From NCBI GenBank assembly GCA_030706385.1, contig JAUZOQ010000017.1, positions 1 through 46,110 of the forward strand: a stretch of DNA of 46,110 nucleotides, in the 5' to 3' direction. A program made the position numbers and the translations under genes. The notes below the pieces were generated by a model. That model ran no database searches. It was not told the origin of the DNA and was given only the letters and a program-made list of their open reading frames with translations. The DNA comes from Bacteroidota bacterium. GTDB lineage: Bacteria; Bacteroidota; Ignavibacteria; Palsa-1295. This document shows, piece after piece, positions 1,606-25,599 of this stretch (positions are counted from its first letter, which is position 1; the number at the start of each line of letters is the position of its first letter).

Positions 1606-1638
1606 AAAAGATTTTTCTTAAGCTTATGTTCTTCTGTA

Positions 1639-2283: not shown

Positions 2284-2300
2284 GATAGTGTTCTCGGCTA

Positions 2301-3758: not shown

Positions 3759-3784
3759 ACGTTAGGCTGTTTGTGTGTAAAAAT

Positions 3785-4642
3785 CTATTTGTGTTTTGTA
3801 GAATCGGTTGCAGCGACTACAGGAATGTTTGCGAGATCTGCTTCCTTGACATTTGTCTTGCCCATAAGAAAGATGACATAGGAGACGAGATGCCAATTCT
3901 CTTCATCAGTAAGGATACCCCCGAATGCAGGCATAGGCGTACCGGCAAGGCCTGTATAGAATGTGCGATAAATATCTTCAATGCGCGAACCGCCTTTTAG
4001 GACTCCTTCGCGAAAGTTGAATGGTTTGATCGGATTATCCTCGGCATCCTTGAGAGCAGCTGCTGAATTTCCGTCGCCAAGCCCTGTTTGTCCATGGCAG
4101 TTTGCGCATCCCATCTTCGCATAGACGGCTTTTCCTTTTGCAGCGGATTCCAGACTGCCGACCCATGTAGGAGGATTCCCGAATGTCAGTGCGTTCGGAG
4201 GAGGAGATGTCTGCCAACGCTCGGAAAACGTTTTGATGTATTCAATGACATTGGCACGATCGGTTTCCGGAAGCATTGCCCAACTCGGCATGGAGCTGCG
4301 CGGAACGCCGCGTAAAAGGGTCCGGTGTAGATCGGCATCGGCTGGAAGAGAGCCCGAAGGCGTCGAGATGAACTTGAACATTGCCCGTGTGAAATTGCGA
4401 GGTTGCACCGAAAGCATTGCACTGGCGGGGCCTTTGCCATCTCCTTTAACTCCATGACAGCCGGAGCAGTATGTTTCATACACTTGCTTGCCGGCATATA
4501 CCTTTGACCATTCGGCATCGCTCACTTTACCGCGTCGAAGGGTATTGATCTTCTTAGCTGTGGATTCTTCTTCAAATGGAGTTTGCTTGCAACTAGTTAG
4601 GCATAGTAGTGCAATACAGAGTGCGGTATATAATCGCGCCAT
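3785..4642 (-). CDS. Dihaem cytochrome c lipoprotein, probable electron donor or CcoP replacement for cbb3
   Basis: About 285 residues from the ATG at 4640-4642. The sequence MARLYTALCIALLCLTSC is a lipoprotein signal ending in the lipobox cysteine. A TTG at 4663 would add seven residues ahead of it and is less likely. Two class I cytochrome c domains follow, with haem sites CSGCH and CANCH. Each has a downstream Met segment (SSMPSWAMLP and TPMPAFGGIL). The gene heads the oxidase operon. No canonical CcoP, which is membrane-anchored and dihaem, is encoded here, so this lipid-anchored protein may take its role. That is inference from order and haem number. Confidence 0.85.
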   Translation of the reverse strand: MARLYTALCIALLCLTSCKQTPFEEESTAKKINTLRRGKVSDAEWSKVYAGKQVYETYCSGCHGVKGDGKGPASAMLSVQPRNFTRAMFKFISTPSGSLPADADLHRTLLRGVPRSSMPSWAMLPETDRANVIEYIKTFSERWQTSPPPNALTFGNPPTWVGSLESAAKGKAVYAKMGCANCHGQTGLGDGNSAAALKDAEDNPIKPFNFREGVLKGGSRIEDIYRTFYTGLAGTPMPAFGGILTDEENWHLVSYVIFLMGKTNVKEADLANIPVVAATDSTKHK

Positions 4643-4782
4643 GGTATGGGTGGATAAAATCAATAAGATTTAGTAAAATGCCCCCCAACTCCGAGGGCAC
4701 GACAGAAGTAATATTGTTAATCGGGAATTCTTGTCTCCAAATTATATGCCAAAGCCCAGAAAATGTCAAATTAGCAAAAAAC

Positions 4783-6231: not shown

Positions 6232-9777
<3,546 letters not shown>

Positions 9778-10025: not shown

Positions 10026-10367
10026 TTAGAGAGCGGTATTGGCTTGTCGGATATGTTCGATCCCGACTTCCTCGATCGCGTCGACGATCATAGGATAGTA
10101 TCGGTCCAGCGGACACTCAACCTGATTGCGATCATCGCAATTCTCCGGAGCGCCGTACGAGCAATTCTCGCAGACGTTTTCGCGAAGTCCGGCCACATAG
10201 TCTTCATAGCGATTGCTTTTTGTCGCAAGAATAGATTTCACGATCCTGTCGTAGTTCGATTCGATCGTGCATTCTCTTGCCGAGCTGATCCGGCAATTTC
10301 CTTGGCTATCTGCATCGATGCAATGCGTGCAGACTCTCTCTTTGATTGCTTCAAGATATTTGTCCAT
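10026..10367 (-). CDS. Small eight-cysteine protein, copy 1 (last gene of the octahaem bc operon)
   Basis: 113 residues, no signal peptide and no membrane span, so probably cytoplasmic. Two internally similar Cys quartets occur, C13-x2-C16-x8-C25-x7-C33 and C66-x2-C69-x7-C77-x7-C85, separated by a helix-like linker. The spacing is unlike 2[4Fe-4S] ferredoxins or rubredoxin. Zn or Fe-S binding is possible but unproven. A strong Shine-Dalgarno (GGAGGAGG) precedes the ATG at 10367. A copy about 90% identical closes the second bc operon at 19160-19504. I do not know its function. Position suggests maturation or control of bc complexes. Confidence 0.85.
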   Translation of the reverse strand: MDKYLEAIKERVCTHCIDADSQGNCRISSARECTIESNYDRIVKSILATKSNRYEDYVAGLRENVCENCSYGAPENCDDRNQVECPLDRYYPMIVDAIEEVGIEHIRQANTAL

Positions 10368-10432: not shown

Positions 10433-11008
10433 TTACTGCTTCTTTGCCGAATCTGCCGGCATGAACGTGCGAACATAAGCAGCAACATAGGCAATATCAT
10501 CCTTTCCCAATGTCCATCCATACGGCGGCATTGAGGGTGACTTGTTCGTACCACGGCCGCCATCGCGGATGATTTGGATCAAACGATCGTCTGAAAACTC
10601 ACTTAAATAATGCTGCTCGGTAAGATCGCGGGGTTTTGGATCCAAGTTATACGTATTAAAGCCATCGGCCTTTCCTTCGGCGCCATGGCAGACCGCACAA
10701 TATTTCGAATAGACATATTGCCCCTGGTGTTGCTCGTAGCTCAAAGTGGGCGGGGGGTGAGCGGCCAAGGAATCTGCGATGCGCAGCGAATCGCGCTTCG
10801 CCGCCAGGGAATCGTTGCTTGCGGAAGTGGAATCGTTGCCAGTACTCGCAGAGTCTTTTGCAGCACCCGTCGAATCTTTCGTTACGGTCAGAGAATCCTT
10901 CGCGGATCTCCCTTTTGGCTTATCGGCATTCCGCTTATTTTCACAGCCTGCTGAAAGCAACACTGCACAGGCAGCAACGAGGAGAAGGTATGATATTCTG
11001 TATTGCAT
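10433..11008 (-). CDS. Monohaem cytochrome c lipoprotein with Asp/Ser/Lys-repeat linker
   Basis: 191 residues. The signal peptide ends in the lipobox LLSAGC. A low-complexity linker of about 55 residues follows, built on imperfect KDS and NDS repeats, then a class I cytochrome c domain with CAVCH and a Met-containing PSMPPYGW segment. It lies 3 bp after the octahaem gene and 65 bp before the Cys-rich gene. The likely role is a membrane-tethered electron carrier from the bc complex, with the flexible linker letting the haem domain reach partners. This is inferred from architecture. Confidence 0.88.
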   Translation of the reverse strand: MQYRISYLLLVAACAVLLSAGCENKRNADKPKGRSAKDSLTVTKDSTGAAKDSASTGNDSTSASNDSLAAKRDSLRIADSLAAHPPPTLSYEQHQGQYVYSKYCAVCHGAEGKADGFNTYNLDPKPRDLTEQHYLSEFSDDRLIQIIRDGGRGTNKSPSMPPYGWTLGKDDIAYVAAYVRTFMPADSAKKQ

Positions 11009-11011
11009 GAT

Positions 11012-12961
11012 CTACTCCTTTTTTTGCTTCAAGAGAAATGCCGTAATTGCCTCTGCATCTGCGTCGCTCAGATTATTATTCGGTTCGATCGTACCTGGTT
11101 TGAAAACTTGCGGATTCTTCAGCCAATAGTAAACCCAGCCTGCTTTCAATCGCGAACTCAATTTATCGAGAGGTGGCCCGACATATCCGCCCTTGCCTTC
11201 TATCTGATGGCAGCTCTGGCATCCGTAACGATCAAAGTACAGACTCCTTCCGTGCAAAGCAAGTGTGTCATTGATCGGAACGGTTCGATTGAGTGAATCG
11301 GCAATGAAGTTTACCTGCATGTAGTCGACGAGTATCTTTCGGTCGGATTCGCTCAACGAAAGATTCGGCATTCGTTCGGTAAGGATCGGACGAAGAGAAT
11401 ATGGCACCTTGAAGTAGTTCATGATCCAATCGGGTTGAGCCTGCGATGCTTCGAGCGAAAGATCGGTGGCAACGAGTCGTCCGCTCCCTTGCATCTTGTG
11501 GCATGCCAGGCATGCGAGATCATCGACAAGTTTCCCGAATTCGCCTTGCGGAGAAAACACGCCTCGGGGTAGGGCGCGACGAACATACTTATTCGGAATG
11601 CTTTCATTTCTATTCGCAAGCAAGGCAACAGTAATTGCCTGCGCCTCCTGCTCCGTAAACCCGAACTTCGGCATTTTTGCCGTTGCAGAAAATGCATGAG
11701 GCGTCATGAGCTTGGTTTGAATGTATTCCGGCAATGATCTGTCGATCTTCGACTGGCCGAAATCGATCTCATACATTCTTTTACTTCCGACAAATGACAG
11801 GTCCGGAGCCATCTCTTCGGCCCGATTCATTGTGCCAAGTTCATGGCATCCGCTGCAATTGTATTTCTTGAAAGCTGTAAGACCCTTTTGGTACGCTTCA
11901 GGATCGGGCGTGTGATCCGGGGGCTGGACCATATCGTAGTCTACGAACTCGTTTTTCATGTAAAGCACTACCGCTGCAAGATCTTCGTCACTAAATCTGA
12001 AGCGAGGCATTTCCACATTGGACATTACATGTTTCGGGGACTTGATATAATTATACAGCCATTCAATGCTCACTTTACTCGAGACTTTGCCAAGATCAGT
12101 AGCAACATATCCGCCTTTTCCATTAACGGAATGACAGCTGATGCAGCGAGCTTCTCCGAAACGCGTTGCCCCCAGCTCAAGCATTTTTGCTTTCTGTGCA
12201 TCGGCCGGATTCAATACCGAAGCGGGAATCGCCGGTAGTGAAGAACCGTCAGAGAGAGTTGTAAATGTTTTGAGGAAATCGGCAATGTTATTCGCATCCT
12301 CATCCGGCATGTTGAAGTTCGGCATGCGGGCATGAGGCCAGTACGCTGTCGGGTTCTTCAGCCAATTGATGAGCCATCCGCCATTAACTTTTGAACCGAC
12401 GCCATCGAGCGGTGGGACCCATCTCTTGCTATATCCTTCGATCTTATGACAGCCCGCACAATTATATTCGGCAATGAGTTTGCGTCCGAGACTAAGCAGC
12501 GGTGCTTCGCGAACTTCCTGATCCTTATGACATTTTCCGCAAGAAGCTTCCATGAATTTTGCCGGCAAGACCGGTTGATCCCAAAATTCACTTTGTCCGT
12601 GAGCTTCCTTGAATTCTGTCGCAGCCCCCTGTCCGTCATGGCACGATGTGCAACCCATGTCCTCAATATCGTGATGCATGAGGGGATGGGTGCGGAATGG
12701 TTGGGGCGCATTTTTCAAAGCAGGTTCTTTGATGCCCAGATGACAAGTTGTGCATCGATCGACTCGATTGAGGCTTTGCACCCAGATCTGTTTGATACCG
12801 ATCTCTGTCGGCCTCACTTTTTGCGGCAGGGTTGCGATTAGGTCATTGTAGGAGTTTTGATATTTTTTCCATTCCGGAAAAAATCCTTTGAATGGAGCGA
12901 TCGCAAGGATCACGAGAAATATGATGGCGACGATCGCAAATATCTTTCTTTGATTCTTCAT
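11012..12961 (-). CDS. Octahaem cytochrome c subunit of an alternative bc complex
   Basis: About 649 residues from the ATG at 12959-12961. Longer upstream frames overlap the cytochrome b gene. One N-terminal anchor (KIFAIVAIIFLVILAIAPF) is followed by eight CXXCH sites. Three are clustered first (CTTCH, CTSCH, CGKCH). Five tandem class I-like domains follow (CAGCH, CISCH, CSGCH, CLACH, CQSCH). Four of these five carry a Met in an MPN/MPR/MPK segment. The fifth has EPNNN there. Context with Rieske and split cytochrome b makes this the cytochrome c1 counterpart, taking electrons from the Rieske centre. Confidence 0.9.
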   Translation of the reverse strand: MKNQRKIFAIVAIIFLVILAIAPFKGFFPEWKKYQNSYNDLIATLPQKVRPTEIGIKQIWVQSLNRVDRCTTCHLGIKEPALKNAPQPFRTHPLMHHDIEDMGCTSCHDGQGAATEFKEAHGQSEFWDQPVLPAKFMEASCGKCHKDQEVREAPLLSLGRKLIAEYNCAGCHKIEGYSKRWVPPLDGVGSKVNGGWLINWLKNPTAYWPHARMPNFNMPDEDANNIADFLKTFTTLSDGSSLPAIPASVLNPADAQKAKMLELGATRFGEARCISCHSVNGKGGYVATDLGKVSSKVSIEWLYNYIKSPKHVMSNVEMPRFRFSDEDLAAVVLYMKNEFVDYDMVQPPDHTPDPEAYQKGLTAFKKYNCSGCHELGTMNRAEEMAPDLSFVGSKRMYEIDFGQSKIDRSLPEYIQTKLMTPHAFSATAKMPKFGFTEQEAQAITVALLANRNESIPNKYVRRALPRGVFSPQGEFGKLVDDLACLACHKMQGSGRLVATDLSLEASQAQPDWIMNYFKVPYSLRPILTERMPNLSLSESDRKILVDYMQVNFIADSLNRTVPINDTLALHGRSLYFDRYGCQSCHQIEGKGGYVGPPLDKLSSRLKAGWVYYWLKNPQVFKPGTIEPNNNLSDADAEAITAFLLKQKKE

Positions 12962-12977: not shown

Positions 12978-13676
12978 CTAGTAAATATGCTCCCAAGGCC
13001 ACGTCCAACTCCATTCCGGCCCACGGAAAAGAGTACCGATCGCTGTAAGCACGACAACGATGAGTACGAACCACGTCATGATCCACCATTGCACCGGTCG
13101 CGTGCCGAGCCAGCCAATGAACCCCTTCTCGCTATGAACGAAATAAGGGATGAGCATTAATACTGTCATCACAAGTGTCGGTACTAGCATTGCGTAGACA
13201 TCAAAGATCAGCAGGACAATGCACATCGCTCCGATCGTGATGAGTGCTACGACCAAGGTCTGCGGCCGATGCTGCTTCCACATGCCCTCTTGCTTGAGAT
13301 TGACATTGAAATATGGAATTGCCACAAGCGCTAGCACGACGAGCATCGGCAGAATAACACCGGCAACAATGGGCGGAAAGTAGTGAAGCAATTCCTGCAG
13401 TCCGAGAAAATACCACGGAGCCTTGGCAGGATTAGGGGTATGCTGCGGATTTGCCTCCCACTCCAGTGGAGCGTTAAAGAATAGCGAAAGCAGCGACAGC
13501 ACGATCACTAAGATCATGAAGGCAATGATCTCGCGAACTACCAGATTCGGAACGGTCATCACCGTTTCCGTTTCTTCCTGCCGCACGCGTGCAGCGGTCC
13601 GGTCCTTTACAAACTCTACTCGCCGTGGTATTTTTTTGGCGTCGGACGATCCTTCGGCTTCGTATTCCTTCGACAT
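12978..13676 (-). CDS. Cytochrome b C-terminal half (subunit IV-like), APWY Qo motif
   Basis: 232 residues from the ATG at 13674-13676, chosen for its Shine-Dalgarno (GGAGGAG) 2 bp after the cytochrome b N-terminal gene. After a charged N-terminal tail there are about four spans. The quinol-oxidation motif, normally PEWY, reads APWY at residues 86-89 (coordinates 13410-13421), followed by FLGLQELLHYFPP, which identifies the domain. Loss of the motif's Glu is known in some low-potential quinone bc complexes. It forms one cytochrome b with the upstream gene and lies 16 bp before the octahaem gene. Confidence 0.88.
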   Translation of the reverse strand: MSKEYEAEGSSDAKKIPRRVEFVKDRTAARVRQEETETVMTVPNLVVREIIAFMILVIVLSLLSLFFNAPLEWEANPQHTPNPAKAPWYFLGLQELLHYFPPIVAGVILPMLVVLALVAIPYFNVNLKQEGMWKQHRPQTLVVALITIGAMCIVLLIFDVYAMLVPTLVMTVLMLIPYFVHSEKGFIGWLGTRPVQWWIMTWFVLIVVVLTAIGTLFRGPEWSWTWPWEHIY

Positions 13677-13678
13677 AA

Positions 13679-14395
13679 TTAGACTCCTCCGTCTTTTCTG
13701 ACTCTCCAAAAGTGAACGCCCATAAGCACCATTGTAGCAATGGGTAGGATAAAGCAATGCAGCACATAAAATCTAACGAGAGCATTCTCGCCTACGATAT
13801 TCCCTCCGAGAAGAAGGTAGCTCATCTTGTCTCCGATTCCGAACGGAACGGCGCGTGCCATATTCGTGCCAACCGAGATTCCCCAAAATGCCAGCTGGTC
13901 CCAGGGAAGCAGATAACCGGTGTAACTCAGAAGAATTGTCAATACCAGAAGAATGACTCCGACGACCCAGTTGAATTCTTTCGGTGGCTTATACGAGCCG
14001 GTGTAGAAGACACGCAGCATATGCAAGAAAGCAACAGCAACCATCGCATGCGCCGACCACCGATGCATGTTGCGCAAGAACAATCCGGAAGAGACGACGA
14101 ACTGCAGATCCTTCATATCGGCGTAGGCCTCCGAAACAGAAGGTCTGTAGTAAAGCATCAGTAACGCGCCCGTTAGTGTCAGGATAATGAATAATCCTGC
14201 CGTAAGGCCGCCTAATGCCCACGTGTAAGTAATCTTCAGGGAGCGCTTGCGCACCTTCACCGGATGAACGTGAAGAAAGAAATTATAAAACACGCTCTCG
14301 GCGCGTGCACGATTCGAGATCGGCAAACCATGCCGGAATACCGAGCGCCAAACGCGCGAGGTAAATAACCGTCCGAGAGTTTTATTCTTCTCCAT
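13679..14395 (-). CDS. Cytochrome b N-terminal half (b6-like, dihaem)
   Basis: 238 residues from the ATG at 14393-14395. A TTG at 14401 is an alternative. Four spans carry the two haem b pairs: H111 and H125 (H-x13-H) and H213 and H228 (H-x14-H). The x14 spacing in the fourth span is b6f-like. [16 protein letters not shown] is the usual cd-region signature. The protein oxidises quinol in the membrane, sending electrons to the Rieske centre and through the b haems. It is separated from the C-terminal half by 2 bp and follows Rieske by about 20 bp. Confidence 0.92.
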
Positions 14396-14414: not shown

Positions 14415-14906
14415 TCAAACTTTAAGTACATTATGTTCATCGACTTTTACCCCTTTATCGACGATCAAATTTCCTTGATCGTCAAGAGTCATTTCGAATC
14501 GCGGCAGTTGTTTCGGAGCCGGACCGCCGATAACAGTACCCTCCCGATTGAATTTGCTCCCATGGCACGGACAGGCAATGATGCCTTCCTCGCCTTTCCA
14601 ATTCGTGATGCATCCAAGATGCGTACATGTGGCAGAAAGCGCGAAGAAATATCCTTCTTTTGCTCGAACGACAAAGACATTTTGATCCTGGATGAGAGTC
14701 ACACTTCCGGGAGAAAAATTCGAAGGTGTGCCGAGCTTGAACTTCGTCGGAGGTTCTTTTACAACGTTCGGGGAAAGATAGGATGCGCTGAGAGCGATCG
14801 AGCCTACGGAGACTATTCCGATCGATCCCAATCCGAGCAACTCCAGAAAGTAACGGCGAGTAACCGAGCCTTCCCGACCTTCTTTTCCGTTTTCTTTTTC
14901 GTCCAT
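14415..14906 (-). CDS. Rieske [2Fe-2S] protein of the octahaem bc operon
   Basis: 163 residues. The N terminus carries an RR motif (RRYFLELLGLGSIG) and one span, a Tat-type membrane anchor. The Rieske ligands are in CTHLGC and CPCHGS, with the GGPAPKQLPRF proline-loop region after them. It is a normal short b6f/bc-type Rieske. It accepts one electron from quinol at the Qo site and passes it to the c-type haems. It is 12 bp after the GltD-like gene and about 20 bp before cytochrome b. Confidence 0.93.
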   Translation of the reverse strand: MDEKENGKEGREGSVTRRYFLELLGLGSIGIVSVGSIALSASYLSPNVVKEPPTKFKLGTPSNFSPGSVTLIQDQNVFVVRAKEGYFFALSATCTHLGCITNWKGEEGIIACPCHGSKFNREGTVIGGPAPKQLPRFEMTLDDQGNLIVDKGVKVDEHNVLKV

Positions 14907-14918
14907 AACCCGTATCTC

Positions 14919-16820
14919 CTATCGATTCACAAGTGTATTGATCGGCATCGGAGCCGATGTGACATAACTCTCCATGGTTATACACCCTACAGGGCAGCGC
15001 ATCGCGCAGAGTCCGCAGCGTATGCACCGTTCTTCATTTTTGATCATTACCGATCCGATCATTTCTTCCGTTTTGCCGGCAAGCACAACGTTGTAAGACT
15101 CATGCAGATCGGGAAGCAATGTCTCTTCAAATCCAACTCGCTCCATCATTATCAGGTCAATGCAATACTCGGGGCATATGTCGACGCATCCGCCGCATAA
15201 GATGCACTCGCTTCCGGTATCTTCACCGGCTCTGTTGAAGGTCGTGTTTTCCCAGCAGTGCAGGCAGCGTGTAGCTTCCAGGCGAGCTTCTTCTTCGTTA
15301 TACCCGATCTCGATCTGCGAAACTCCAACACGCCTGTCGATATCTAAGCTTGGAATCGGCACCCGGGATAACGACTCATATCCCCAAGGCCTGGAATAGG
15401 TTTTCGTGTTGGCAACGATGATCTCGATATGATCTTCACGCAGATCGACCTCTGCAAATTGTTTTTCTCCTCTGTTAAGAAATTGATGGATGGACTGTGC
15501 CGCTCGTTTTCCGTTGGCAATTGCGTCAATCGCTATCCGCGGGCCGAAGGAAACGTCACCTCCTGCGTAAATTCCAGGAGCGGTTGTTGCGAGAGTAATG
15601 GGATCCACTTTGATCGTATTGCGCGGCGTGACTTCGATGCCATCAGCTGGATCGATCCAACTAAGATCTGAAGTCTGTCCGATCGCCATAATGATCGTAT
15701 CGGCTTCGATAATGTTTTCCGAATTCGGAGCAAATTTCGGGTTGAAACGTTTATTCTCGTCGAAGACGGAAAGACAATCGACGGTTTGCAGGCCGGTTAC
15801 TTTGCCATTAACTCCAACGATCTTATTCGGCCCCTTTCGGGTATGAATATGAATGCGTTCTTCTTTCGCCTCCACAATCTCCTCGTGTGCAGCCGGCATC
15901 TCGTTCCAGTCTTCAAGGCAGACCATATGAACTTCTTCAGCACCGAAGCGGATCGCAGAGCGTGCAACATCAAGTGCTTGCGTGACCTCTGTGACCTGAG
16001 TCGGCTCGCCTTTTTCTTGCCGAGCAACGGTTCTTGCAACATCGATGGCAACACTGCCTCCGCCGATGACAATGACCTTGTGACCTAACTCAACGCGATA
16101 GCCAAGATTGACATTCAGGAGATAGTCTACTGCGCGTAGGACGCCATCGAATTCTACTCCCTCGATTGTAAGATCGCGGCTCTTGTGAGCTCCGATCGCG
16201 ATAAAAAAAGCTTGAAATCCTTCTTCTCTCAAAGAAGCGATTGTGAAATCTTTCCCAAGCCTGACATTGAGCCGCAGTTCTACGCCGAGGCTAAGTATTG
16301 CGTTGATCTCAAGTCGAATGAGTTCTCTGGGGAGACGGTACTCTGGGATACCGAGACGAAGCATACCTCCTGCAACGGACTGTGCTTCGAAGACGGTAAC
16401 TTCGTACCCCTGAAGCGCAAGATCATGCGCGCAGGAAAGGCCTGCAGGTCCTGAACCGATGATGGCAACACGAATCCCGTTTCGCTTCACCGATTTCCCG
16501 AAAACCTCTTTGAGTTTTTCGAGATCCATCATGCTCTCGACACCAAAGCGTTCGCAAACAAAACGCTTCAGCGCACGGATCGCGATCGGCTCATCGATCT
16601 CTCCTCGTCTGCAGGCAGTCTCGCAGGGAGCAGCGCAAACCCTCCCGCAGATCGATGCGAAAGGGTTCGGGCGTCTCGCTACAGAATACGCTTCCCGGTA
16701 TTTGCCTTCCTCGATCAGGCCTACATACCGGCCGGCTTCCGTATGCACCGGACAAGCCGACATGCAGGGGAAGTTGGAATCAAGCCACTCGAGATTGACA
16801 AATTTGATCTGCTCAGACAT
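14919..16820 (-). CDS. GltD-like FAD/NAD(P) oxidoreductase with added [4Fe-4S] domains, bc-operon associated
   Basis: 633 residues. The N-terminal Fe-S domain has cysteines at 19, 23, 58, 62, 66 and 70. The FAD-binding fold starts at about residue 116 with IIGSGPAGLS, and a second dinucleotide fold (VIVIGGGSVAID) is the NAD(P)H site. The C-terminal ferredoxin-type motifs are CILCGGCVDICP and CIRCGLCAMRCP. It resembles the small subunit of glutamate synthase, but no large subunit is nearby. It lies in the cytochrome bc operon, 12 bp before Rieske. The likely role is linking the bc complex to the NAD(P)H pool, as proposed for anammox Rieske/b clusters carrying NAD(P)-oxidoreductase genes. Confidence 0.85.
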   Translation of the reverse strand: MSEQIKFVNLEWLDSNFPCMSACPVHTEAGRYVGLIEEGKYREAYSVARRPNPFASICGRVCAAPCETACRRGEIDEPIAIRALKRFVCERFGVESMMDLEKLKEVFGKSVKRNGIRVAIIGSGPAGLSCAHDLALQGYEVTVFEAQSVAGGMLRLGIPEYRLPRELIRLEINAILSLGVELRLNVRLGKDFTIASLREEGFQAFFIAIGAHKSRDLTIEGVEFDGVLRAVDYLLNVNLGYRVELGHKVIVIGGGSVAIDVARTVARQEKGEPTQVTEVTQALDVARSAIRFGAEEVHMVCLEDWNEMPAAHEEIVEAKEERIHIHTRKGPNKIVGVNGKVTGLQTVDCLSVFDENKRFNPKFAPNSENIIEADTIIMAIGQTSDLSWIDPADGIEVTPRNTIKVDPITLATTAPGIYAGGDVSFGPRIAIDAIANGKRAAQSIHQFLNRGEKQFAEVDLREDHIEIIVANTKTYSRPWGYESLSRVPIPSLDIDRRVGVSQIEIGYNEEEARLEATRCLHCWENTTFNRAGEDTGSECILCGGCVDICPEYCIDLIMMERVGFEETLLPDLHESYNVVLAGKTEEMIGSVMIKNEERCIRCGLCAMRCPVGCITMESYVTSAPMPINTLVNR

Positions 16821-16849: not shown

Positions 16850-17449
16850 CTACCGTTTGATGTCGAAATTTGCTTCGACCTCACCGGATTCCGTGACGGT
16901 GATCTGCTGGGCTGCTCCATGAAGCTTTTCATGCCAGATCTTGAGCGTGTAGGTACCTGCCGGCACACCCTTGATCGTGTAACTGCCATCAGCTCCAGTT
17001 ACAGCGTGGTAGGGCGTTTCCAAAACGACAACCGTGCCTTGCATTTCCGGATGCACATTGCAGAGCAAGGTGGCAATACAACCGGCCGATGTAAACGTCA
17101 TAGACTTCGTCTGTCCTTTCGGCCAAGAACCAAGATTGAATTTGCCATCACATTTATCAGGCGAATACACATTATGAAGCACATCGTCACTATTGAGGAA
17201 ATCGACGGTCGTACCCACAAGTACCGGAAGTACTTTGGGCTTGAATGTCATGTTGCGTTGATCGATCTTTGCATGAGCCTTCGGAGCGGGGAATGACTTT
17301 CCCGGGATCTTATCGATGTAGACAACGGCATCACCTGCATTTTTTGCACCATGTGCAGTTACTTTGCCTTTGATCGTTCCGGCCTGGATGCTTTGTGCCG
17401 TTGCAAGAATTGCTGCAACGACGATCATGAGAGTTACTTTCATTTTCAT
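16850..17449 (-). CDS. Periplasmic cupredoxin-like protein with carboxypeptidase-regulatory-type domain
   Basis: 199 residues. The signal peptide ends at SIQAG. A plastocyanin-like fold carries a complete type 1 copper ligand set: H92 (DVLHNVYSP), C130, H133 and M136 (CNVHPEM). The C-terminal part (VTGADGSYTIKGVPAGTYTLKIW) is a beta-sandwich of the carboxypeptidase regulatory/CnaB type. It lies 48 bp after the Cyc2-like gene and 29 bp before the GltD-like gene. A soluble copper electron carrier between outer-membrane cytochrome and inner-membrane complex would fit, and is inference. Confidence 0.85.
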   Translation of the reverse strand: MKMKVTLMIVVAAILATAQSIQAGTIKGKVTAHGAKNAGDAVVYIDKIPGKSFPAPKAHAKIDQRNMTFKPKVLPVLVGTTVDFLNSDDVLHNVYSPDKCDGKFNLGSWPKGQTKSMTFTSAGCIATLLCNVHPEMQGTVVVLETPYHAVTGADGSYTIKGVPAGTYTLKIWHEKLHGAAQQITVTESGEVEANFDIKR

Positions 17450-17497: not shown

Positions 17498-18892
17498 TTA
17501 GATTCCCAGTGTCATCATCAATTGCGTTTGACCGTTTTGGAACTTGGAATCTCCATCGGCTTTGATGAAGCTCGTCCGAAGAGTCCATTTGACATTCGGC
17601 CTCCAAAGGAAAACGATGCCGGGTACGATCTGTATGTCCGAATAGCTGGAAGCTATTGCCTTGGTAGGATCATTGGGATCCGGAATTGCGTGTTCGCTAT
17701 TCCAGGTTTCGAATCGGATGCCTGGCAGAAGCCATGGATATGCGACGACATCGAGTTCTGCGAACGCAGTTGTTGTCTTTGCCGAAAGATTTGGAGCTTG
17801 TAAGAATGGATTGTCATCCTTGCGTATGCCGATGCCTCCGAAGAGATTGAACCGGTCGAACCAAAGATTGATATCGCCGCCGAACATGGTGAATGTGTTC
17901 GTTTGGTTATTCGACCCAGCCACTGTATCACCAATCAGAGGCAGACTCGGATCGGCCGCCAGTAATGCATTGCCGCCATAGACGAAAGCTCCGATCGTAA
18001 ATGAGTTGTCGACATAGGGCTGCAAATTATTCAGGTTCGGGCCACCGGCAGTCACGCCATCAAGCGGTAGCCCGCCAACCTTGTATGAAAGGTGTCCGTA
18101 AAAATCTTTGTCGGAATGGAGCGGTCCACCCTCTGGACCAAAACCTTCCACAATGCCTGCACTGTAAAATAACCGTCCGTCAGCAGCCATTCCGTTCACT
18201 TCGATACCGCTGAGATGCTCTTCGAGAGTCCAACCCATTTGGTCATCATGGTGATCAGCATCACCAAAGGCTCTTGTCGTTAACCAATATCCTTCCATCC
18301 ATGCACGATGGGTGGAAAAGGAAAAAAGCTGAGGTTCAAATACGCCGATGCGGGCATTGAGTGCATAAGAATCTCCGATAATGTTGCTGATGCTGAGGAA
18401 GATGCGATTGAGTTCAAGCCCCTCGCTGCTAAATGAGGCCTGGCCCCAAAATGCCATATCCTCGCCCAATGTACCACCGATCGCTGTTTCGATTGCATTA
18501 CCCAGGCCACTGAAGCTCCATCGTGCATTCGTCGACGGATCGCCATCGATAGTCTTCGGGTTGTAATCGATCTCGCCATTCAAGAATAGGGAGATTGGAG
18601 AATGTGATGGTATGGTACCGGGCCAGATCGCATCGGGGAATGATTTCTTGTTTCCTTCTGCACCAAGGCTGACTTCTTCATCCTTGGTAAATTCTGCGTC
18701 CGTGTGCCCTGGGAATTGATAGCCGTTTCTTCTGAATGCATCGCCAAAAGCATTCAGTTTCGGAAATCCGACATGGCAGGTTGCACAGCTTGTCTTGTAC
18801 TTGCGTGCGAATGCGGGGATTGCCGAACTGTTTTCACTCAAGACTAAGACAAAAAAGAATGCAAGTATGGAGAGATACAGTACTTTTTTCAT
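17498..18892 (-). CDS. Cyc2-like fused monohaem cytochrome-porin, outer membrane
   Basis: 464 residues. The signal peptide ends near NSSA, and the haem site is C36-A-T-C39-H40. The surrounding pattern IPAFARKYKTSCATCHVGFP, then KLNAFGDAFRRNGY, closely follows the Cyc2 N-terminal pattern (PxFARxxxxxCxxCHxxxPxLxxFGxxFxxxGY). The remainder has alternating amphipathic strands rich in aromatic residues, suited to a barrel of about 16 strands. Length matches Cyc2 proteins (400-500). Cyc2 moves electrons from extracellular Fe(II) across the outer membrane. Related proteins of unknown role share the pattern, so substrate is uncertain. It leads the nine-gene bc operon. Confidence 0.75.
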   Translation of the reverse strand: MKKVLYLSILAFFFVLVLSENSSAIPAFARKYKTSCATCHVGFPKLNAFGDAFRRNGYQFPGHTDAEFTKDEEVSLGAEGNKKSFPDAIWPGTIPSHSPISLFLNGEIDYNPKTIDGDPSTNARWSFSGLGNAIETAIGGTLGEDMAFWGQASFSSEGLELNRIFLSISNIIGDSYALNARIGVFEPQLFSFSTHRAWMEGYWLTTRAFGDADHHDDQMGWTLEEHLSGIEVNGMAADGRLFYSAGIVEGFGPEGGPLHSDKDFYGHLSYKVGGLPLDGVTAGGPNLNNLQPYVDNSFTIGAFVYGGNALLAADPSLPLIGDTVAGSNNQTNTFTMFGGDINLWFDRFNLFGGIGIRKDDNPFLQAPNLSAKTTTAFAELDVVAYPWLLPGIRFETWNSEHAIPDPNDPTKAIASSYSDIQIVPGIVFLWRPNVKWTLRTSFIKADGDSKFQNGQTQLMMTLGI

Positions 18893-19159: not shown

Positions 19160-19504
19160 TTAGTTAACAGCGCTGTAGGCTTGTCGAATATGTTCAATCC
19201 CGACTTCTTCGATCGCATCGACGATCATAGGATAGTATCGGTCCAGCGGACACTCAACTTGATTGCGATCATCGCAAGTCTCGGGAGCTCCGTAGGAGCA
19301 GTTCTCGCAGACGTTCTCGCGAAGTCCGGCTACGTAGTCTTCATAGCGATTGCTTTTGGTCGCAAGAATGGATTTCACGATCCTGTCGTAGTTCGATTCG
19401 ATCGTGCATTCTCTTGCCGAGCTGATCCGGCAATTTCCTTCATTATCTGCATCGATACAATGTGTGCAGACTTTTTCCTTAATTGCTTCAAGATACGTAT
19501 ACAT
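19160..19504 (-). CDS. Small eight-cysteine protein, copy 2 (last gene of the compact bc operon)
   Basis: 114 residues from the ATG at 19502-19504, the start that aligns with copy 1. An upstream ATG at 19540 would run through a hairpin. It has the same two Cys quartets as copy 1 and differs at about ten positions. Seventy nucleotides (19371-19440) are identical to copy 1 including silent positions, indicating recent duplication or gene conversion. It follows the cytochrome b/c fusion gene by 41 bp. Function is unknown. Occurring last in both bc operons is the only clue. Confidence 0.85.
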   Translation of the reverse strand: MYTYLEAIKEKVCTHCIDADNEGNCRISSARECTIESNYDRIVKSILATKSNRYEDYVAGLRENVCENCSYGAPETCDDRNQVECPLDRYYPMIVDAIEEVGIEHIRQAYSAVN

Positions 19505-19516
19505 ATAATTGTCAAT

Positions 19517-19540
19517 GTGGCGGATGATAAGATCCGCCAC
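19517..19540 (-). terminator. Perfect 9-bp-stem hairpin between cytochrome b/c and Cys-rich gene
   Basis: GTGGCGGAT (19517-19525) pairs with ATCCGCCAC (19532-19540) around a 6-nt loop. It is in the short gap after the cytochrome b stop and before the Cys-rich start. There is no T-run, so it is more likely an mRNA-stability or partial-termination element than a full terminator. Confidence 0.5.
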
Positions 19541-19545: not shown

Positions 19546-21009
19546 CTATTTCAAACTGTTCAAATACGCCAACAGCGCATTCATCTGATCATCGGGTAAC
19601 TCGACAGGATCCATATTCCCGTCTTTCATTTTCTGAGTCGGAGTTTTTAGGAGATTCAACAAGGCGTCATGATTATATTTTTCTCCGATGCCGAGGAGCT
19701 TTGGGCCTGCATCTGTGCCGGTGCCATTATCTCCATGACATCCGTCGCATGAATTATCGGTAAAGAGTTTCTTACCTTTTGCTGCAAGCGGATCGGCAAG
19801 TTCGATATTCTGCGATGCCAGGCTCGATCCGGCGAGCTCGGGCTCAAACTTTGCCTTGATGAACGCTTCGGTTTCCGCTGCTTGCTTCGCCAGTTGTTTG
19901 GCAGTGGTCGTATCACGGGCATCATCGTTTCCACTTTGCCATCCGAGGAATACTAACGATCCAAGAACAAGAAGAAAACTTCCGATGGCGATCGGTCTTT
20001 TCCATGGCTTGCGCTGGTGTTTGCGATCATAGAATGGAAGCAAGGCCAGACATCCGATGATGATTGCCGGTATGACGACAATTCCGATTACGACGTTCGG
20101 GCCGCTCCAGTACTTCAGCCATTGGAAGATCGGCAAATAATACCATTCCGGTCTTGGCATAAATTGCGTATCTGCCGGGTTTGCTTTCGGGCCGAGTTCT
20201 GCAGGGGAGAGGTAAGAAAGTAATCCGAGTATACCGACGAGGATCGTAGCGAAGACGATGTCATAAACGACTTGCTTCGGATAGAACTGCTCGGTCTTCA
20301 TCTTCGGCTCGATCGGATCGGCTTTGATCGGTCCGGCAGAACCGGCTTTGCGGAAAAGAAATACGTGCGTTCCGACAAACGTGAAGATGAATGCAGGGAT
20401 CAGGAATACGTGAGCTACGAAGAATCTCGAAAGTGTAAGCGTACCCATTTCCGTGCCGCCTCGCATCAAACGCTTCAACCAATCTCCGATGATCGGCATT
20501 TCACCGGCTATATTCGTTCCGACAGCCGTGGCAAAATATGCCTTCTGGTCCCAGGGTAGAAGGTAACCGGTGAATGCCATTCCAATAACGAGCGCAAAGA
20601 GGATAAGACCGGAAAGCCAGAGAAGCTCCCGGCGGCCTTTGTATGCGCCCCAAAAATATGTCTGCGCCAAATGCACGACCAGTGTAACGACCATCGCACT
20701 CGATCCATACGAATGCAAGCTGCGGACGAACGAGCCTCCAGTTACAGCTTTGGTAATGTAGGCTACCGTCGTATGCGCATGGTCGGCGCTTGCGACATAA
20801 TACATCGCAAGAAAAATTCCGGTAATGATCTGCGATAAGAGTATATAGAGTAGTCCCGATCCGAATACATAGGCAAGCCTGGCTCCGCCAGGGATCGGTT
20901 CATCGAGTGCCTCGTGGGTCAGTTCTTTGATGCCGGTCCGTTTGTCAAACCATGACATCAACTTGCCGCTCCGCGTTGAGGTATCTTCGGTATTTGGTAT
21001 TTCTGACAT
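19546..21009 (-). CDS. Cytochrome b with C-terminal cytochrome c domain (bc complex fusion), PEWY Qo motif
   Basis: 487 residues. The full cytochrome b domain has haem ligands H99/H113 (H-x13-H) and H200/H215 (H-x14-H), [13 protein letters not shown], and an intact PEWY at residues 287-290. After the last spans, a hydrophobic segment (about 340-357) leads to a C-terminal cytochrome c domain with C421-DGC-H425. Fusion of haem c to cytochrome b or subunit IV is known in several lineages and replaces a separate cytochrome c1. It is 24 bp after Rieske and precedes the Cys-rich gene. It forms the second, compact quinol:cytochrome c oxidoreductase. Confidence 0.93.
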   Translation of the reverse strand: MSEIPNTEDTSTRSGKLMSWFDKRTGIKELTHEALDEPIPGGARLAYVFGSGLLYILLSQIITGIFLAMYYVASADHAHTTVAYITKAVTGGSFVRSLHSYGSSAMVVTLVVHLAQTYFWGAYKGRRELLWLSGLILFALVIGMAFTGYLLPWDQKAYFATAVGTNIAGEMPIIGDWLKRLMRGGTEMGTLTLSRFFVAHVFLIPAFIFTFVGTHVFLFRKAGSAGPIKADPIEPKMKTEQFYPKQVVYDIVFATILVGILGLLSYLSPAELGPKANPADTQFMPRPEWYYLPIFQWLKYWSGPNVVIGIVVIPAIIIGCLALLPFYDRKHQRKPWKRPIAIGSFLLVLGSLVFLGWQSGNDDARDTTTAKQLAKQAAETEAFIKAKFEPELAGSSLASQNIELADPLAAKGKKLFTDNSCDGCHGDNGTGTDAGPKLLGIGEKYNHDALLNLLKTPTQKMKDGNMDPVELPDDQMNALLAYLNSLK

Positions 21010-21033
21010 TGTATTTCCTTTTCGAATGCTTGA

Positions 21034-21615
21034 TCAAGCAATGACTTCTTTTGTCGGTACGAGTTGACGGAATGATTGATACCGTACTTGCAGCTTTCCG
21101 TCTGCGATGCGGGAGTCGAGTTCGTCGAGGTTGCGCGGAGGCGGACCTGAAACGAGTTTGCCATCTGTCTCGAAGACACCTTTATGGCAGGGACAGGCAA
21201 ACTTCTTATCCCCATCATCATACCGTACTGAGCAACCCAGATGGGGACAGATCGAAGTGAGTACCTTCAATTTACCATCGCCTTCTTTCACTACATAGAC
21301 GGATTTTTCCTGAATGACCTTCCGCCATCCGTCGACTTGATTGACGGTAATTACCACTTTTTTGGGAGCAGTGATCGTCGAAAGTTCGTCAACAGAACCC
21401 AGATCCGACCAGGCGGTTTCTGTCGTTACATCCGTCAGGGGATGGAGAGCGAACCGAACTAGCGGAACGGAAAGAAGTCCACCGACTGTGACGGTTCCGA
21501 TCCCGAGCAACCACCCGAGAAAGGACCGTCTTCCAGTCAGTGTTTGAGTATCCGCAGACTTCGGTGATGCTCCTGAAGCATCGGTATTTGCTTGAGTCGT
21601 CATGTTTTCATTCAT
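21034..21615 (-). CDS. Rieske [2Fe-2S] protein of the compact bc operon
   Basis: 193 residues. A hydrophilic N-terminal tail precedes a Tat-type signal anchor (GRRSFLGWLLGIGTVTVGG). The Rieske ligands are in CPHLGC and CPCHKG, followed by SGPPPRNLDE. An internal ATG at 21603 is a possible alternative start, but 21615 fits the tail. It is 18 bp after the small cytochrome c gene and 24 bp before the cytochrome b/c fusion, giving a complete three-component quinol-oxidising complex. Confidence 0.93.
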   Translation of the reverse strand: MNENMTTQANTDASGASPKSADTQTLTGRRSFLGWLLGIGTVTVGGLLSVPLVRFALHPLTDVTTETAWSDLGSVDELSTITAPKKVVITVNQVDGWRKVIQEKSVYVVKEGDGKLKVLTSICPHLGCSVRYDDGDKKFACPCHKGVFETDGKLVSGPPPRNLDELDSRIADGKLQVRYQSFRQLVPTKEVIA

Positions 21616-21633
21616 ATACTGCGGATTCCTAGA

Positions 21634-21990
21634 TTACTTTTTTTTCTGTGCAGCGAGCCATTTGCTAACGGTAGCGAGATCATCGTCAGAGCCGGTCCAT
21701 TTCTTCAGATGTTTTTTCCCATTGAGTTCTTCTTCTTTCATGAGCCAGCCTTTGATCCAATCGGCGTTATGCTTGAGGCCTACACCGGAGAGATCAGGCG
21801 GGGTTTTTCCGGGAGGAGGTGCACCATTGCGCTCGACTCCTTGAGATTCCACCGTATGACATTTGTCACATTTGTTGGCCTTAAATATTGATTTGGCATC
21901 GGAACCGGTTGCGAGATTATTGATACTTGCTGCACCGACCATCATTCCGGCCATTGTTGCTATTGCCATTATTGCTAATATTTGCTTCAT
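21634..21990 (-). CDS. Small periplasmic monohaem cytochrome c leading the compact bc operon
   Basis: 118 residues from the ATG at 21988-21990. A longer in-frame reading to 22053 would put residues ahead of a clear signal peptide (MKQILAIMAIATMAGMMVGA). There is one haem site, CDKCH. The domain contains the unusual inserted loop GVERNGAPPPGKTPPDL before the distal helix, and possible Met ligands near WLMKEEE. It probably shuttles electrons between the bc complex and the oxidase. It is the first gene of the operon, 134 bp below palindrome copy D. Confidence 0.88.
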   Translation of the reverse strand: MKQILAIMAIATMAGMMVGAASINNLATGSDAKSIFKANKCDKCHTVESQGVERNGAPPPGKTPPDLSGVGLKHNADWIKGWLMKEEELNGKKHLKKWTGSDDDLATVSKWLAAQKKK

Positions 21991-22116
21991 TGTCGTTTGT
22001 CCTTTATTGAAAGTAATTCGTAGAATGCTGTGATCGTACCTAAGAACCCCCAATATCTATGCCACGCCAGTCAGCCATCTAATTGAGCAAATTTACGATA
22101 TTTCTTAGAATTAAGT

Positions 22117-22131
22117 GTAAGAATTCTTTAC
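22117..22131. promoter_or_regulatory. GTAA-N7-TTAC operator, copy D (compact bc operon)
   Basis: The sequence GTAAGAATTCTTTAC lies about 134 bp upstream of the cytochrome c start at 21990. It differs from copy E1 at a single position (14 of 15). A run of nine T lies just to its right, giving an A-tract on the gene strand. Confidence 0.6.
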
Positions 22132-22186
22132 GGTAAACTTTTTTTTTGACTTCATGTGTACCGACTCGTTTCGGGGGAGAGATAGA

Positions 22187-22209
22187 GCAGCCCGCAAATT
22201 GCGGGCTGC
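22187..22209 (-). terminator. Terminator-like hairpin after the mtrB-like gene
   Basis: GCAGCCCGCA (22187-22196) pairs with TGCGGGCTGC (22200-22209) around a 3-nt loop. It starts 28 bp after the barrel gene's end. The minus-strand tail is pyrimidine-rich (CTCTATCTCTC), not a pure T-run. It probably separates the decahaem/barrel operon from the compact bc operon. Confidence 0.6.
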
Positions 22210-22237
22210 GACCTATGTAACATGCAATGAGTGCGCC

Positions 22238-24598
22238 TTAGAGTCGGAAGTAGAGGCTTCCGCGAATCAGGCTTGCCTTATAATTATTCATAACATTCGT
22301 GTATGGGTAATCTCCGTCTTCTTTCTGCATTGCCAATTGATAATCGGCCATAATGGAGAGATTCTTTGAGAGATCATAGGATGCCTGCGCATGGAAGAGG
22401 TTCCATGTGTATGGTCCACCCACGCGAACGAGATCGGGGCCTTGTCCCGGTCCGGGAGTCACATCGATGGTCACAATACTACCACCAGTCGAACGGATCA
22501 TCGAGAATCCGACGAGGATGTGAAGCTTCTCGATCTCATTGACCAGAAGAGTAGCATCGAGTGAACGGTCAATCGTGCGCTGGGCATCGTCGATCGTCAA
22601 AGTATCACCGTAAGGCGGAGCCGGATCGTCACCCTGGCCGCGGGTATAGGATACCGGGATCGAGAAGTAATTCGTCCGGTATTCGCCCGATGCGACGATC
22701 GAGGTCTTCTTTGTAATACTGTAGCCGATTGATCCGGAGAACGACGCCATCTTGTTTGTGAGCCTCGGATCAAACGTCTCGACGATCGGAATCATGCTGA
22801 GAAGATCGGTCATGCCGAAGACACCTTTGAACTGAAAGCCGATGCGCAGATCTTTGACCGGATTTGCGTCAAACCCGAGACTATATTTGTCTGTCTTTTC
22901 GGGATCGATGCGTATCGTATTATCCACCTGAGTTGTGGTGCCATGCATATAGGACTTGATATCGGAATGACTGTAACTTCCCGATATCTTCAGTTCATGT
23001 ATCGGACGGAACCAGAAATTCACGAACGGAGTGATTCCTTTCTGCTGGCGCGAGAGATTCGCGTTAATGAGCAAATTCGAGGAATCGTCGTCGAGTCGGT
23101 TGTAGTCCGGATTGCGTGCCGTATACTGCAATCCGGCACGGAGGTTGAGTGTATTGATCGGAGCATAGTTGATGAATCCCTCAACAAAGTGCTGAGTCAC
23201 CGTGCTGTTGATCTCGGTTTTGAAATCGGCATTATAGAGCGAACGGAAAATGGTATTGCTCGCCGAATCGGTTGTACCGACACCTGCGTTAAGCGTTCCG
23301 ATGCTCGTCAGATCGGTATTTGTATACCGATAGAGGCCTGTCAGTGTGAGTTCATCGGTGACATGGCCTGAAAGCGTCAGCGATCCGATCAAAGATTTGA
23401 ACGAATTGTTGTTGCTGGCAATCGTCGTGTCTGTGATAAGGCGTCGCCCCGAGCTGGATGGACCGATGAGGCCGGCGCCGGCTGTCGGCATATAGCCTAG
23501 CATGTTGCCTTTGATCGTGCTACCGTCCGTAGTCGTATTCTCATACCGGAGGTTCGCGGTGACCGACATTTTGTCGGACGGACGGCTAACTGCTTCGAAA
23601 TATACTATGGGCGTATTGCTCTTACGGTTGTCATCCCATGAGTACGCTAATAGCGGATTGTTGGTCGAAGTAGTTGCGACTTTAGCGAAGGGATTAGCGT
23701 AGATTCCGCTGAAACTGTTCGGGGCAAATAAAGCCCTTAAGTATGTCAGCGAGGTATCGTTCACCGGAGTATAGTTGATATCTTGGGTGAAGCGACGGAA
23801 TCCGCCACCGATCGTGAACGCCGTGTTAGTGGCCACTTTGAAGGTGCCCTGCAAAAGGTACTCGTTCGACTGGTCGTTCTTTGGTGAACTCATCCAGTAG
23901 AAATTGCCACGCGCATAGCTGCCGAAGCTGCCGTCTGCAGTATCATTTCCCGTTTTTTTCGAATCGCCGCCTACTGCCTCGGCTTCGTCGATTAACGGCG
24001 ATACCGTCATTGTATAATCGCCGGAATGACCGGTCCAGTTGTACAACATTGTTAGCTTCACCTGGTCGGAGACATCGTAAGCGATAGAGGTATTGAGGAA
24101 CTCACGTGTGTAGTTCCATTTATGCAGTCCGGTATAGATCGAATCGTCACGGTTCATGAAGTATTTCATGTTTTTGTAATCGACCTTGATATCGAACGAG
24201 TTGAACGACCGCATCCTAAAGCTTGCCGTCGTGTACGGATCGCCAATGCCATCTACGTTGAGCATGAGCTGATCCATGAAGGCTTCTTTTTTGCCCGTGC
24301 TTTCTCCGAAGAGGCTGAACGAGTTGAGCCGTAGGCCGTTGCGATAGTTCATCGCCTCGTAGTAGCGTTGCTGCGCCCAGTAGTCACTTGGATTGGAAGA
24401 GCCACCAGGCTGTGATTCCATGCCGCTGAGATAGCCCGCGGAAAATCCGAGGTTCCAGTCATAGGTATCGGAGCCGGTTGTTTCATCCTGTGCGAGAACC
24501 GGAGTTCCGGTAACTGCAAGTGCGGCGAACGTTGCTAGTACTGCGAGTGTAGTGCGAATACTAATCGTCAAGCGAGATGATTGATTATTGTTCTTCAT
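22238..24598 (-). CDS. MtrB/PioB-family outer-membrane beta-barrel (decahaem-associated)
   Basis: 786 residues. The signal peptide ends at TPVLAQ. The rest consists of many amphipathic strands with short turns and longer loops, fitting a 26-28-strand barrel of MtrB size (about 700-800), and the last residue is Leu (SLYFRL). MtrB/PioB barrels enclose a decahaem cytochrome and insulate an electron conduit across the outer membrane. The N-terminal CxxC of Shewanella MtrB is not seen. The decahaem cytochrome gene is 14 bp upstream, which makes the family call firm. No MtrC- or OmcA-like outer cytochrome is in the window. Confidence 0.85.
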   Translation of the reverse strand: MKNNNQSSRLTISIRTTLAVLATFAALAVTGTPVLAQDETTGSDTYDWNLGFSAGYLSGMESQPGGSSNPSDYWAQQRYYEAMNYRNGLRLNSFSLFGESTGKKEAFMDQLMLNVDGIGDPYTTASFRMRSFNSFDIKVDYKNMKYFMNRDDSIYTGLHKWNYTREFLNTSIAYDVSDQVKLTMLYNWTGHSGDYTMTVSPLIDEAEAVGGDSKKTGNDTADGSFGSYARGNFYWMSSPKNDQSNEYLLQGTFKVATNTAFTIGGGFRRFTQDINYTPVNDTSLTYLRALFAPNSFSGIYANPFAKVATTSTNNPLLAYSWDDNRKSNTPIVYFEAVSRPSDKMSVTANLRYENTTTDGSTIKGNMLGYMPTAGAGLIGPSSSGRRLITDTTIASNNNSFKSLIGSLTLSGHVTDELTLTGLYRYTNTDLTSIGTLNAGVGTTDSASNTIFRSLYNADFKTEINSTVTQHFVEGFINYAPINTLNLRAGLQYTARNPDYNRLDDDSSNLLINANLSRQQKGITPFVNFWFRPIHELKISGSYSHSDIKSYMHGTTTQVDNTIRIDPEKTDKYSLGFDANPVKDLRIGFQFKGVFGMTDLLSMIPIVETFDPRLTNKMASFSGSIGYSITKKTSIVASGEYRTNYFSIPVSYTRGQGDDPAPPYGDTLTIDDAQRTIDRSLDATLLVNEIEKLHILVGFSMIRSTGGSIVTIDVTPGPGQGPDLVRVGGPYTWNLFHAQASYDLSKNLSIMADYQLAMQKEDGDYPYTNVMNNYKASLIRGSLYFRL

Positions 24599-24612
24599 GG
24601 CTGTATCCTCCC

Positions 24613-25599
24613 TTAGTTGATGAAGTATTCGGAACGGTTAGAGCCATGGATCTGCGCATGGCAGCGAGTGCAATCGCCGGAAGTCTGCAGACTGAAATTG
24701 CCTCGGGAGTGTGGCACTCCGACTCCGGTTTCTTTGGAGTGGCAACTGATGCAAAGGGTTCGAGGGTCTCGATCCTTCAACATGTTTCTGGACGCTGAGC
24801 CATGACTTTCGTGACAAGCCATACAGCCGTCAATCGCTTGAGCATTGTGTTCATAAACGAACGGTCCTCTCTTGTCCTGATGGCAGCTCACGCAGAGCGT
24901 CTTGGTATCTGCCCGAAGCTGATGATCATAATCTGACCCGTGAGGATTATGACAACTTGTGCAGTTAAGAATACCTTCTTTGAGACGATGATGAGTCGGT
25001 TTATTGAAATCGGCATCAACGGTGTTATGGCAGGAAAGGCAAAGCTCGGATTGTTTTCCCTTAAGCATTGCCGATTTCCCCATTGCCATCATTTCATTCT
25101 TATGCTCTTTCGTCGGATGGAGTTCATGGCAACTTGTGCACCCAACTCCGGCCCGGAAGTGCTCGCTGAGCTTTCCATGACTCTGTTCGCCCGGCTTTTC
25201 ATGGCAATTCAGGCATGTTGCCGAGACTTCGTTAGCAGAACGGTTTTTCATAGTCTGGATCGTGCCCGGCGCGCCACCGGTTTCCAGATGATGTGCTGCA
25301 TCGCCATGGCATTGCTCGCACGCTTGTCCGTTCTTCCACATATGAGCATGAGTTGTACTCTTGAAGGAAGAGACTTGATCTTCATGACAAATGGCGCAAG
25401 TATCAGTTGATACCCATTTGCCTTGAATGTTTATCATGATCGGACGCGCCGAAGCAGTGACGTGGTCCGCCGCTGCAATTGCATGGGCGCCCTTAGCCAA
25501 AGCACTCGGATCCGGTCGCGAAGAAAATGCCTGTTCGGCGGCATTAGCGGCAAAGACAATAGCCGCACTAAATAGGATATAATATATGAGCGTTTTCAT
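24613..25599 (-). CDS. Decahaem c-type cytochrome, MtrA/DmsE family
   Basis: 328 residues, the usual MtrA/DmsE length. There is a signal peptide, then exactly ten CXXCH sites: CAICH, CEQCH, CLNCH, CTSCH, CLSCH, CTSCH, CVSCH, CMACH, CISCH and CTRCH. Many distal His residues sit in the spacers, suggesting bis-His ligation. The protein threads the partner barrel to carry electrons between periplasm and cell surface. The direction (metal reduction, iron oxidation or other) cannot be read from sequence. Two GTAA-N7-TTAC palindromes lie upstream of this first gene. Confidence 0.93.
   Translation of the reverse strand: MKTLIYYILFSAAIVFAANAAEQAFSSRPDPSALAKGAHAIAAADHVTASARPIMINIQGKWVSTDTCAICHEDQVSSFKSTTHAHMWKNGQACEQCHGDAAHHLETGGAPGTIQTMKNRSANEVSATCLNCHEKPGEQSHGKLSEHFRAGVGCTSCHELHPTKEHKNEMMAMGKSAMLKGKQSELCLSCHNTVDADFNKPTHHRLKEGILNCTSCHNPHGSDYDHQLRADTKTLCVSCHQDKRGPFVYEHNAQAIDGCMACHESHGSASRNMLKDRDPRTLCISCHSKETGVGVPHSRGNFSLQTSGDCTRCHAQIHGSNRSEYFIN

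Follow-up and report, generated by a model that had tools for sequence, protein, structure and literature searches.

A Cyc2-like cytochrome-porin heads a Rieske/cytochrome b6 operon that may link the cell exterior to quinone and NAD(P) in a Bacteroidota bacterium

The 46,110-nucleotide stretch of Bacteroidota DNA analyzed here (the window) carries an operon in which a Cyc2-like monohaem cytochrome-porin is followed by a cupredoxin, an NAD(P)-linked flavoprotein, a Rieske/b6/subunit IV complex and multihaem and monohaem cytochromes c (Table 1). We consider it very probable that this anatomy is correct and that the operon connects the cell exterior with its quinone and NAD(P) pools. The best overall explanation is an electron route across both membranes; that the route serves uptake is a reading to which we give an even chance.

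Table 1. Features of the window that bear on the cytochrome-porin operon
Feature	Position	Strand	Evidence or remarks
cbb3-type oxidase genes and ScdA/YtfE-type di-iron repair protein	946-4663 and 9025-9777	minus	
Small Cys-rich protein of unknown family, operon end	10026-10367	minus	No Pfam match
Lipoprotein-like monohaem cytochrome c	10433-11008	minus	Pfam Cytochrome_CBB3
Membrane-anchored octahaem cytochrome c	11012-12961	minus	8 CXXCH; NCBIfam ExtS above cut-off; start set at an internal ATG
Subunit IV-type membrane protein	12978-13676	minus	Pfam Cytochrom_B_C; NCBIfam ExtQ below cut-off; start set at an internal ATG
Cytochrome b6-type subunit	13679-14395	minus	Pfam Cytochrome_B; start set at an internal ATG
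Rieske [2Fe-2S] protein	14415-14906	minus	Pfam Rieske
NAD(P)/FAD/[4Fe-4S] oxidoreductase (GltD/Nfn-like) with C-terminal ferredoxin domain	14919-16820	minus	Pfam Pyr_redox_2, Fer4_20, Fer4_7; PRK12771
Cupredoxin with type-1 copper site and CarboxypepD_reg domain	16850-17449	minus	Pfam Copper-bind, CarboxypepD_reg; best PDB match amicyanin
Cyc2-like monohaem cytochrome-porin, 464 aa	17498-18892	minus	Motif, two trees, 16-strand model, porin fold
Near-copy of the Cys-rich protein	19160-19540	minus	
Second operon: DmsE-type decahaem MtrA, MtrB/PioB-like barrel, cytochrome c, Rieske, cytochrome b with fused c	19546-25599	minus	

The porin's open reading frame coincides exactly with the interval in Table 1, the plus strand of that stretch holding many stops, and its product has a signal-peptide-like start, one CXXCH motif and the N-terminus SAIPAFARKYKTSCATCHVGFPKLNAFGDAFRRNGYQFPG. 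Cyc2 proteins are at least 365 aa long and share the consensus AXPXFAR[Q/K][T/Y], CXXCH and PXL (Keffer et al. 2021, PMC8406198). The preliminary description had recognized a Cyc2 pattern in the N-terminal haem region, and comparison with this published consensus confirmed it: the window porin reads AIPAFARKY, then KTS, then CATCH, with a single haem motif and sufficient length, and the downstream PXL is present (CATCHVGFPKL), though this element is not invariant within its subfamily. The motif is not a chance resemblance, since full-length relatives, sought in whole genomes and named contigs, occur across many phyla, the nearest (57%–62% identity) being found in Ignavibacteria and Bacteroidota bins. 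No model in Pfam or NCBIfam matched the porin, a solved-structure profile search built on 68 relatives gave no credible sequence homologue, and the viral contigs searched held no relative.

An AlphaFold2 model run on an alignment of 68 relatives (mean pLDDT 80.6, pTM 0.80) contains 16 strands of at least seven residues between residues 100 and 463. Its best PDB matches by Foldseek were 16-strand porins (VhChiP, PorB, OmpT, OprP and OprO), and OprP and OprO are also the structural homologues reported for Mariprofundus Cyc2 (Keffer et al., PMC8406198). The model therefore agrees with the earlier expectation that the rest of the protein forms a barrel; as for a haem inside it, the barrel was recovered and the haem region (residues 20-60) was modelled at low confidence only (pLDDT 46-65). 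The protein is predicted to be an outer-membrane porin of 16 strands whose N-terminus bears a single c-type haem motif, and we take the gene product to be, most probably, a barrel of the outer membrane that carries one haem of its own and is distantly related to Cyc2.

How distant was assessed in two maximum-likelihood trees. The cluster-1 label of green sulfur Cyc2 was taken from the literature, in which Cyc2 of green sulfur bacteria belongs to cluster 1 and ~40% of Chlorobium groups have Cyc2 (PMC8406198). Cluster-2-type references, labelled by motif and taxon, comprised plasmid-borne Burkholderiales and Methylocystis sequences, for which tblastn against plasmids gave N-terminal matches only, and sequences from three genomes of the window's class. 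Cluster-1 and cluster-2-type Cyc2 each formed one clade and lay together on one side of a branch, with the window porin opposite (support 99/99 and 100/99), and constraining the window clade to group with them was rejected (AU p 0.0005). A position close to Cyc2 cluster 1 or 2 is ruled out by these results, and the Cyc2 reading first offered is not supported in that form: the phylogeny proposed to check it puts the porin outside the clusters with the Mariprofundus and Acidithiobacillus enzymes.

Judged from sequence, the porin belongs to an uncharacterised subfamily of wide extent, which is marked by an IWPG.IP-like signature of its own. The pattern P..[IVPATL][WYF]P..[IMLVF]P, composed after the alignment had been viewed, occurs in the window porin (PDAIWPGTIP at residue 86). 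It is present in 24/24 green sulfur and 60 of 76 window-type relatives, whereas the 7 cluster-2-type, 20 cluster-1 and 26 other monohaem porins all lack it. Cyc2 of Acidithiobacillus, Mariprofundus, Gallionellaceae and Chlorobium has the same AXPXFAR[Q/K][T/Y]-CXXCH-PXL arrangement, one haem, a 16-strand porin and more than 365 aa; however, the window porin has RKYxT where Cyc2 has RQTG, and its operon partners differ. It is highly improbable that this is a plain Cyc2 acquired from iron oxidisers and functioning as first proposed: the consensus motif and the barrel would suit such an origin, but the trees, the AU test and the lack of the second signature in all 27 cluster-1 and cluster-2-type sequences speak against it. 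In the window's class, at least two further PxFARKY monohaem porin subfamilies are common (L003-L030), as exemplified by the FTCHTTPPLLNDFG and CSTCHAPFPKLKPFGDEF types.

From the porin onward, the operon genes lie on one strand with short gaps, and 267 bp separate the porin gene from the next gene upstream, the last of a second bc operon. The porin is thus the first gene of its operon, as originally described, and the partners named at that time (cupredoxin, NAD(P)-linked flavoprotein and bc complex) were all identified. Promoter evidence amounted to a weak consensus match and nothing more. The cupredoxin is predicted to have a complete type-1 copper site, with ligands H92, C130, H133 and M136 conserved in 83, 89, 90 and 89 of 90 homologues, respectively, while the best PDB match of the flavoprotein was NfnABC (9bov/9bp5, E 1.4e-90) and the b6-type subunit scored 276.7 bits against NCBIfam ExtP, under the cut-off of 290. 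Near-copies of the Cys-rich protein (113-126 aa; 92% aa identity and 91.7% DNA identity over 327 bp) close both bc operons at the 3' end, one each, and a 43% homologue lies between Rieske and b6 in locus L074.

The first matches of the Rieske protein and the flavoprotein indicate that the inner-membrane part of the operon is, on sequence grounds, of the kind known from Kuenenia. Among all solved structures, the window Rieske first matched 9rk4 and 9rk3 (Kuste4569 and Kustd1480, respectively, in the structure paper's naming), 9rk3 also being the first match for the Rieske of a planctomycete carrier, and the Kuenenia NAD(P) oxidoreductase subunits were themselves modelled on their relative NfnABC (PMC12954380). 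The window operon has the Rieske, b6-type b, subunit IV and octahaem c genes of this type, with the gene for a putative Nfn-like NAD(P)-FAD-Fe-S protein adjoining that for the Rieske. The same b6-type b with subunit IV, Rieske and Nfn-like oxidoreductase are found in Kustd1480-1485 and Kuste4569-4574, and in all of them a multihaem c replaces cytochrome f; unlike those of Kuenenia, the window complex shares its operon with a cupredoxin and an outer-membrane cytochrome-porin, and no HAO-like octahaem enzyme was seen there. For the Kuenenia complexes, NAD(P)H formation by quinol-electron bifurcation rather than simple reverse flow has been proposed, and no high-potential partner has been proposed for Kustd1480-1485 (PMC12954380). 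That proposal for this type of complex counts against simple reverse flow, and we grade the reverse flow to NAD(P) suggested in the preliminary description as no more than possible.

Two other systems offer partial parallels. The Geobacter cluster extHIJKLMNOPQS has the same Rieske, b6-type ExtP, membrane ExtQ, multihaem ExtS and an outer-membrane porin-like protein, but it differs in that ExtI is without a haem motif (PMC5877670), several other multihaem cytochromes are present and the published gene list contains no NAD(P) flavoprotein. The rus and pet operons of Acidithiobacillus share a Cyc2-type porin, a cupredoxin and a bc complex that form a single pathway for uptake and reverse flow, yet these are two operons with a bc1 complex, whereas the window groups all three in one operon, its complex being b6-type and joined by an Nfn-like flavoprotein.

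Gene order is kept across distant phyla. The series cytochrome-porin, type-1 cupredoxin, NAD(P) flavoprotein, Rieske, b6, subunit IV, octahaem c and mono-c recurs in Ignavibacteria, Eisenbacteria, Gemmatimonadales (Gemmatimonadota), Calditrichota, Myxococcales (Myxococcota; in this example the cupredoxin precedes the porin) and, within Acidobacteriota, Thermoanaerobaculia, Terriglobia and Geothrix. Among 68 named porin homologues with at least 1.5 kb downstream, picked like all counted loci solely by porin similarity, a cupredoxin lay no more than 2 kb downstream in 56 and anywhere in the locus in 66; of the 58 loci in which at least 3.5 kb followed the porin, 25 had Rieske and b6 within 12 kb on the porin's own strand and 20 had the flavoprotein. 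These counts are not independent events, because the loci are related. We found no published account of this gene order in the open-access literature.

Directly upstream of the porin operon is the second operon of Table 1, whose MtrA/MtrB-like pair has no MtrC beside it. G003 (locus L220, G003:C19), a genome from the family of the window's genome, has counterpart bc genes with a cytochrome b 72% identical to that of the second operon. A third Rieske-b6-subunit IV-octahaem (1021 aa) cluster occurs elsewhere in the window's genome (L225, G000:C155:2062-8967), with a cupD-like protein and no cytochrome-porin. Given the second operon, the G003 relatives and the third cluster, the window appears to be an island for exchanging electrons at the outer membrane. 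Two outer-membrane conduits, each into its own bc complex, lie inside 16 kb, and the G003 bc genes are flanked by two divergent Cyc2-like monohaem porins with MtrAB near.

The porin might instead handle a small soluble non-iron substrate, such as a metal, an oxyanion or a sulfur compound, with the bc complex feeding ordinary cbb3 respiration. The fold resembles the anion porins OprP and OprO among others, the ExtP, ExtQ and ExtS models matched are named for selenite/tellurite reduction, the third cluster does without a porin and many loci have only a cupredoxin nearby. Nonetheless, the Geobacter porin ExtI is reported to be without a haem motif and the full operon order is conserved in distant phyla, and we regard this reading as distinctly unlikely.

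Green sulfur bacteria, whose families were recognized by FMO in five genomes tested, carry a variant of the operon. In FMO-bearing genomes, a porin of the same subfamily comes first, ahead of Rieske, a 110-aa two-cluster ferredoxin (where the window has its flavoprotein), b6, subunit IV, octahaem c and mono-c, often with a cupredoxin included, and the first solved-structure match of the green sulfur Rieske was again 9rk3 (E 5.4e-38). Porin and octahaem genes stand side by side on one contig in at least 26 of 34 octahaem-bearing green sulfur genomes, several of the remainder being split by contig ends. In genome G160, a cluster-1 Cyc2 (L152, 15894-17216) lies directly behind a window-type porin/Rieske/octahaem operon. 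The other 19 green sulfur cluster-1 Cyc2 loci have neither a cupredoxin nor a Rieske nearby, with a small cytochrome in most; these 19 loci, to which G160 is the sole exception, rule out that a nearby bc complex is general to cytochrome-porins.

If the operon works in uptake, a soluble one-electron donor, most likely Fe(II), would be oxidised at the haem at the barrel mouth or inside it, and the electron would be handed on to the cupredoxin and the c haems. Some of the electrons would then run downhill to an oxidase, a cbb3-type enzyme being encoded in the window, while the membrane potential would drive others in reverse through Rieske/b6, so that they reach menaquinone and also, via the attached flavoprotein, NAD(P). 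This direction is favoured by the Cyc2 consensus motif together with the 16-strand porin, by the oxidation of Fe(II) in tested members of the cytochrome-porin superfamily and by the cupredoxin neighbour, which recalls Acidithiobacillus, where Cyc2's partner is the cupredoxin rusticyanin. The repetition of the full gene order across phyla also argues for uptake, as do the green sulfur carriers, phototrophs needing donors that keep the porin beside the octahaem complex, the cluster-1 Cyc2 right behind the porin operon in G160 and the upstream MtrA/MtrB without MtrC, an MtoAB/PioAB layout that also leads into a bc complex.

Other observations weaken it. Carbon fixation was checked by three markers (RuBisCO, ATP-citrate lyase and acetyl-CoA synthase), none of which was found in the window's genome and which occurred in 1, 1 and 3 genomes, respectively, among 25 carriers, so it is not evident why these bacteria would require reverse flow to NAD(P)H. 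The porin's place outside the cluster-1 and cluster-2 clades likewise counts against uptake, as do the low confidence of the modelled haem region and the operon's presence in Geothrix, an Fe(III)/humic reducer. Taking both sides together, uptake is the reading we prefer, though as the main direction of electrons we see it as an evenly balanced proposition; because a bc complex can run either way, uptake and export may both occur.

Export, which we consider possible though somewhat doubtful, would have menaquinol oxidised by Rieske/b6, with the low-potential electron reducing NAD(P) through the flavoprotein in a Kuenenia-like bifurcation and the high-potential electron moving from Rieske via octahaem c, cupredoxin and cytochrome-porin until it reaches an extracellular acceptor, for instance Mn(IV), chelated Fe(III) or humics. 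It would accord with the Rieske matches to Kuste4569 and Kustd1480, for which potentials of +303 and +335 mV have been measured (PMC12954380), the NfnABC match, a complex type thought to oxidise quinol, the rarity of the three fixation markers and the Geothrix operon. Geobacter ExtOPQS, sitting with an outer-membrane porin, is moreover tied to reduction (PMC5877670). However, tested cytochrome-porins are oxidases, what the green sulfur carriers require is donors, not acceptors, and one haem in the porin suits small soluble donors. A broader version, in which a widespread module makes NAD(P)H by a quinol-bifurcating Rieske/b6 complex while high-potential electrons leave or enter via the cupredoxin and the one-haem porin, seems to us rather unlikely.

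Whichever way electrons run, the operon would use one complex to couple electron exchange at the outer membrane straight to the pools of quinone and NAD(P)H, and such coupling would span many phyla, green sulfur bacteria and Geothrix included. Genome surveys in which every Cyc2-like porin is taken for an iron oxidase may be including members of a distinct subfamily that may work in either direction. The operon offers a testable partner for Kuenenia-type complexes and, if the bifurcating-module reading is true, supplies the high-potential partner for a complex of that type.
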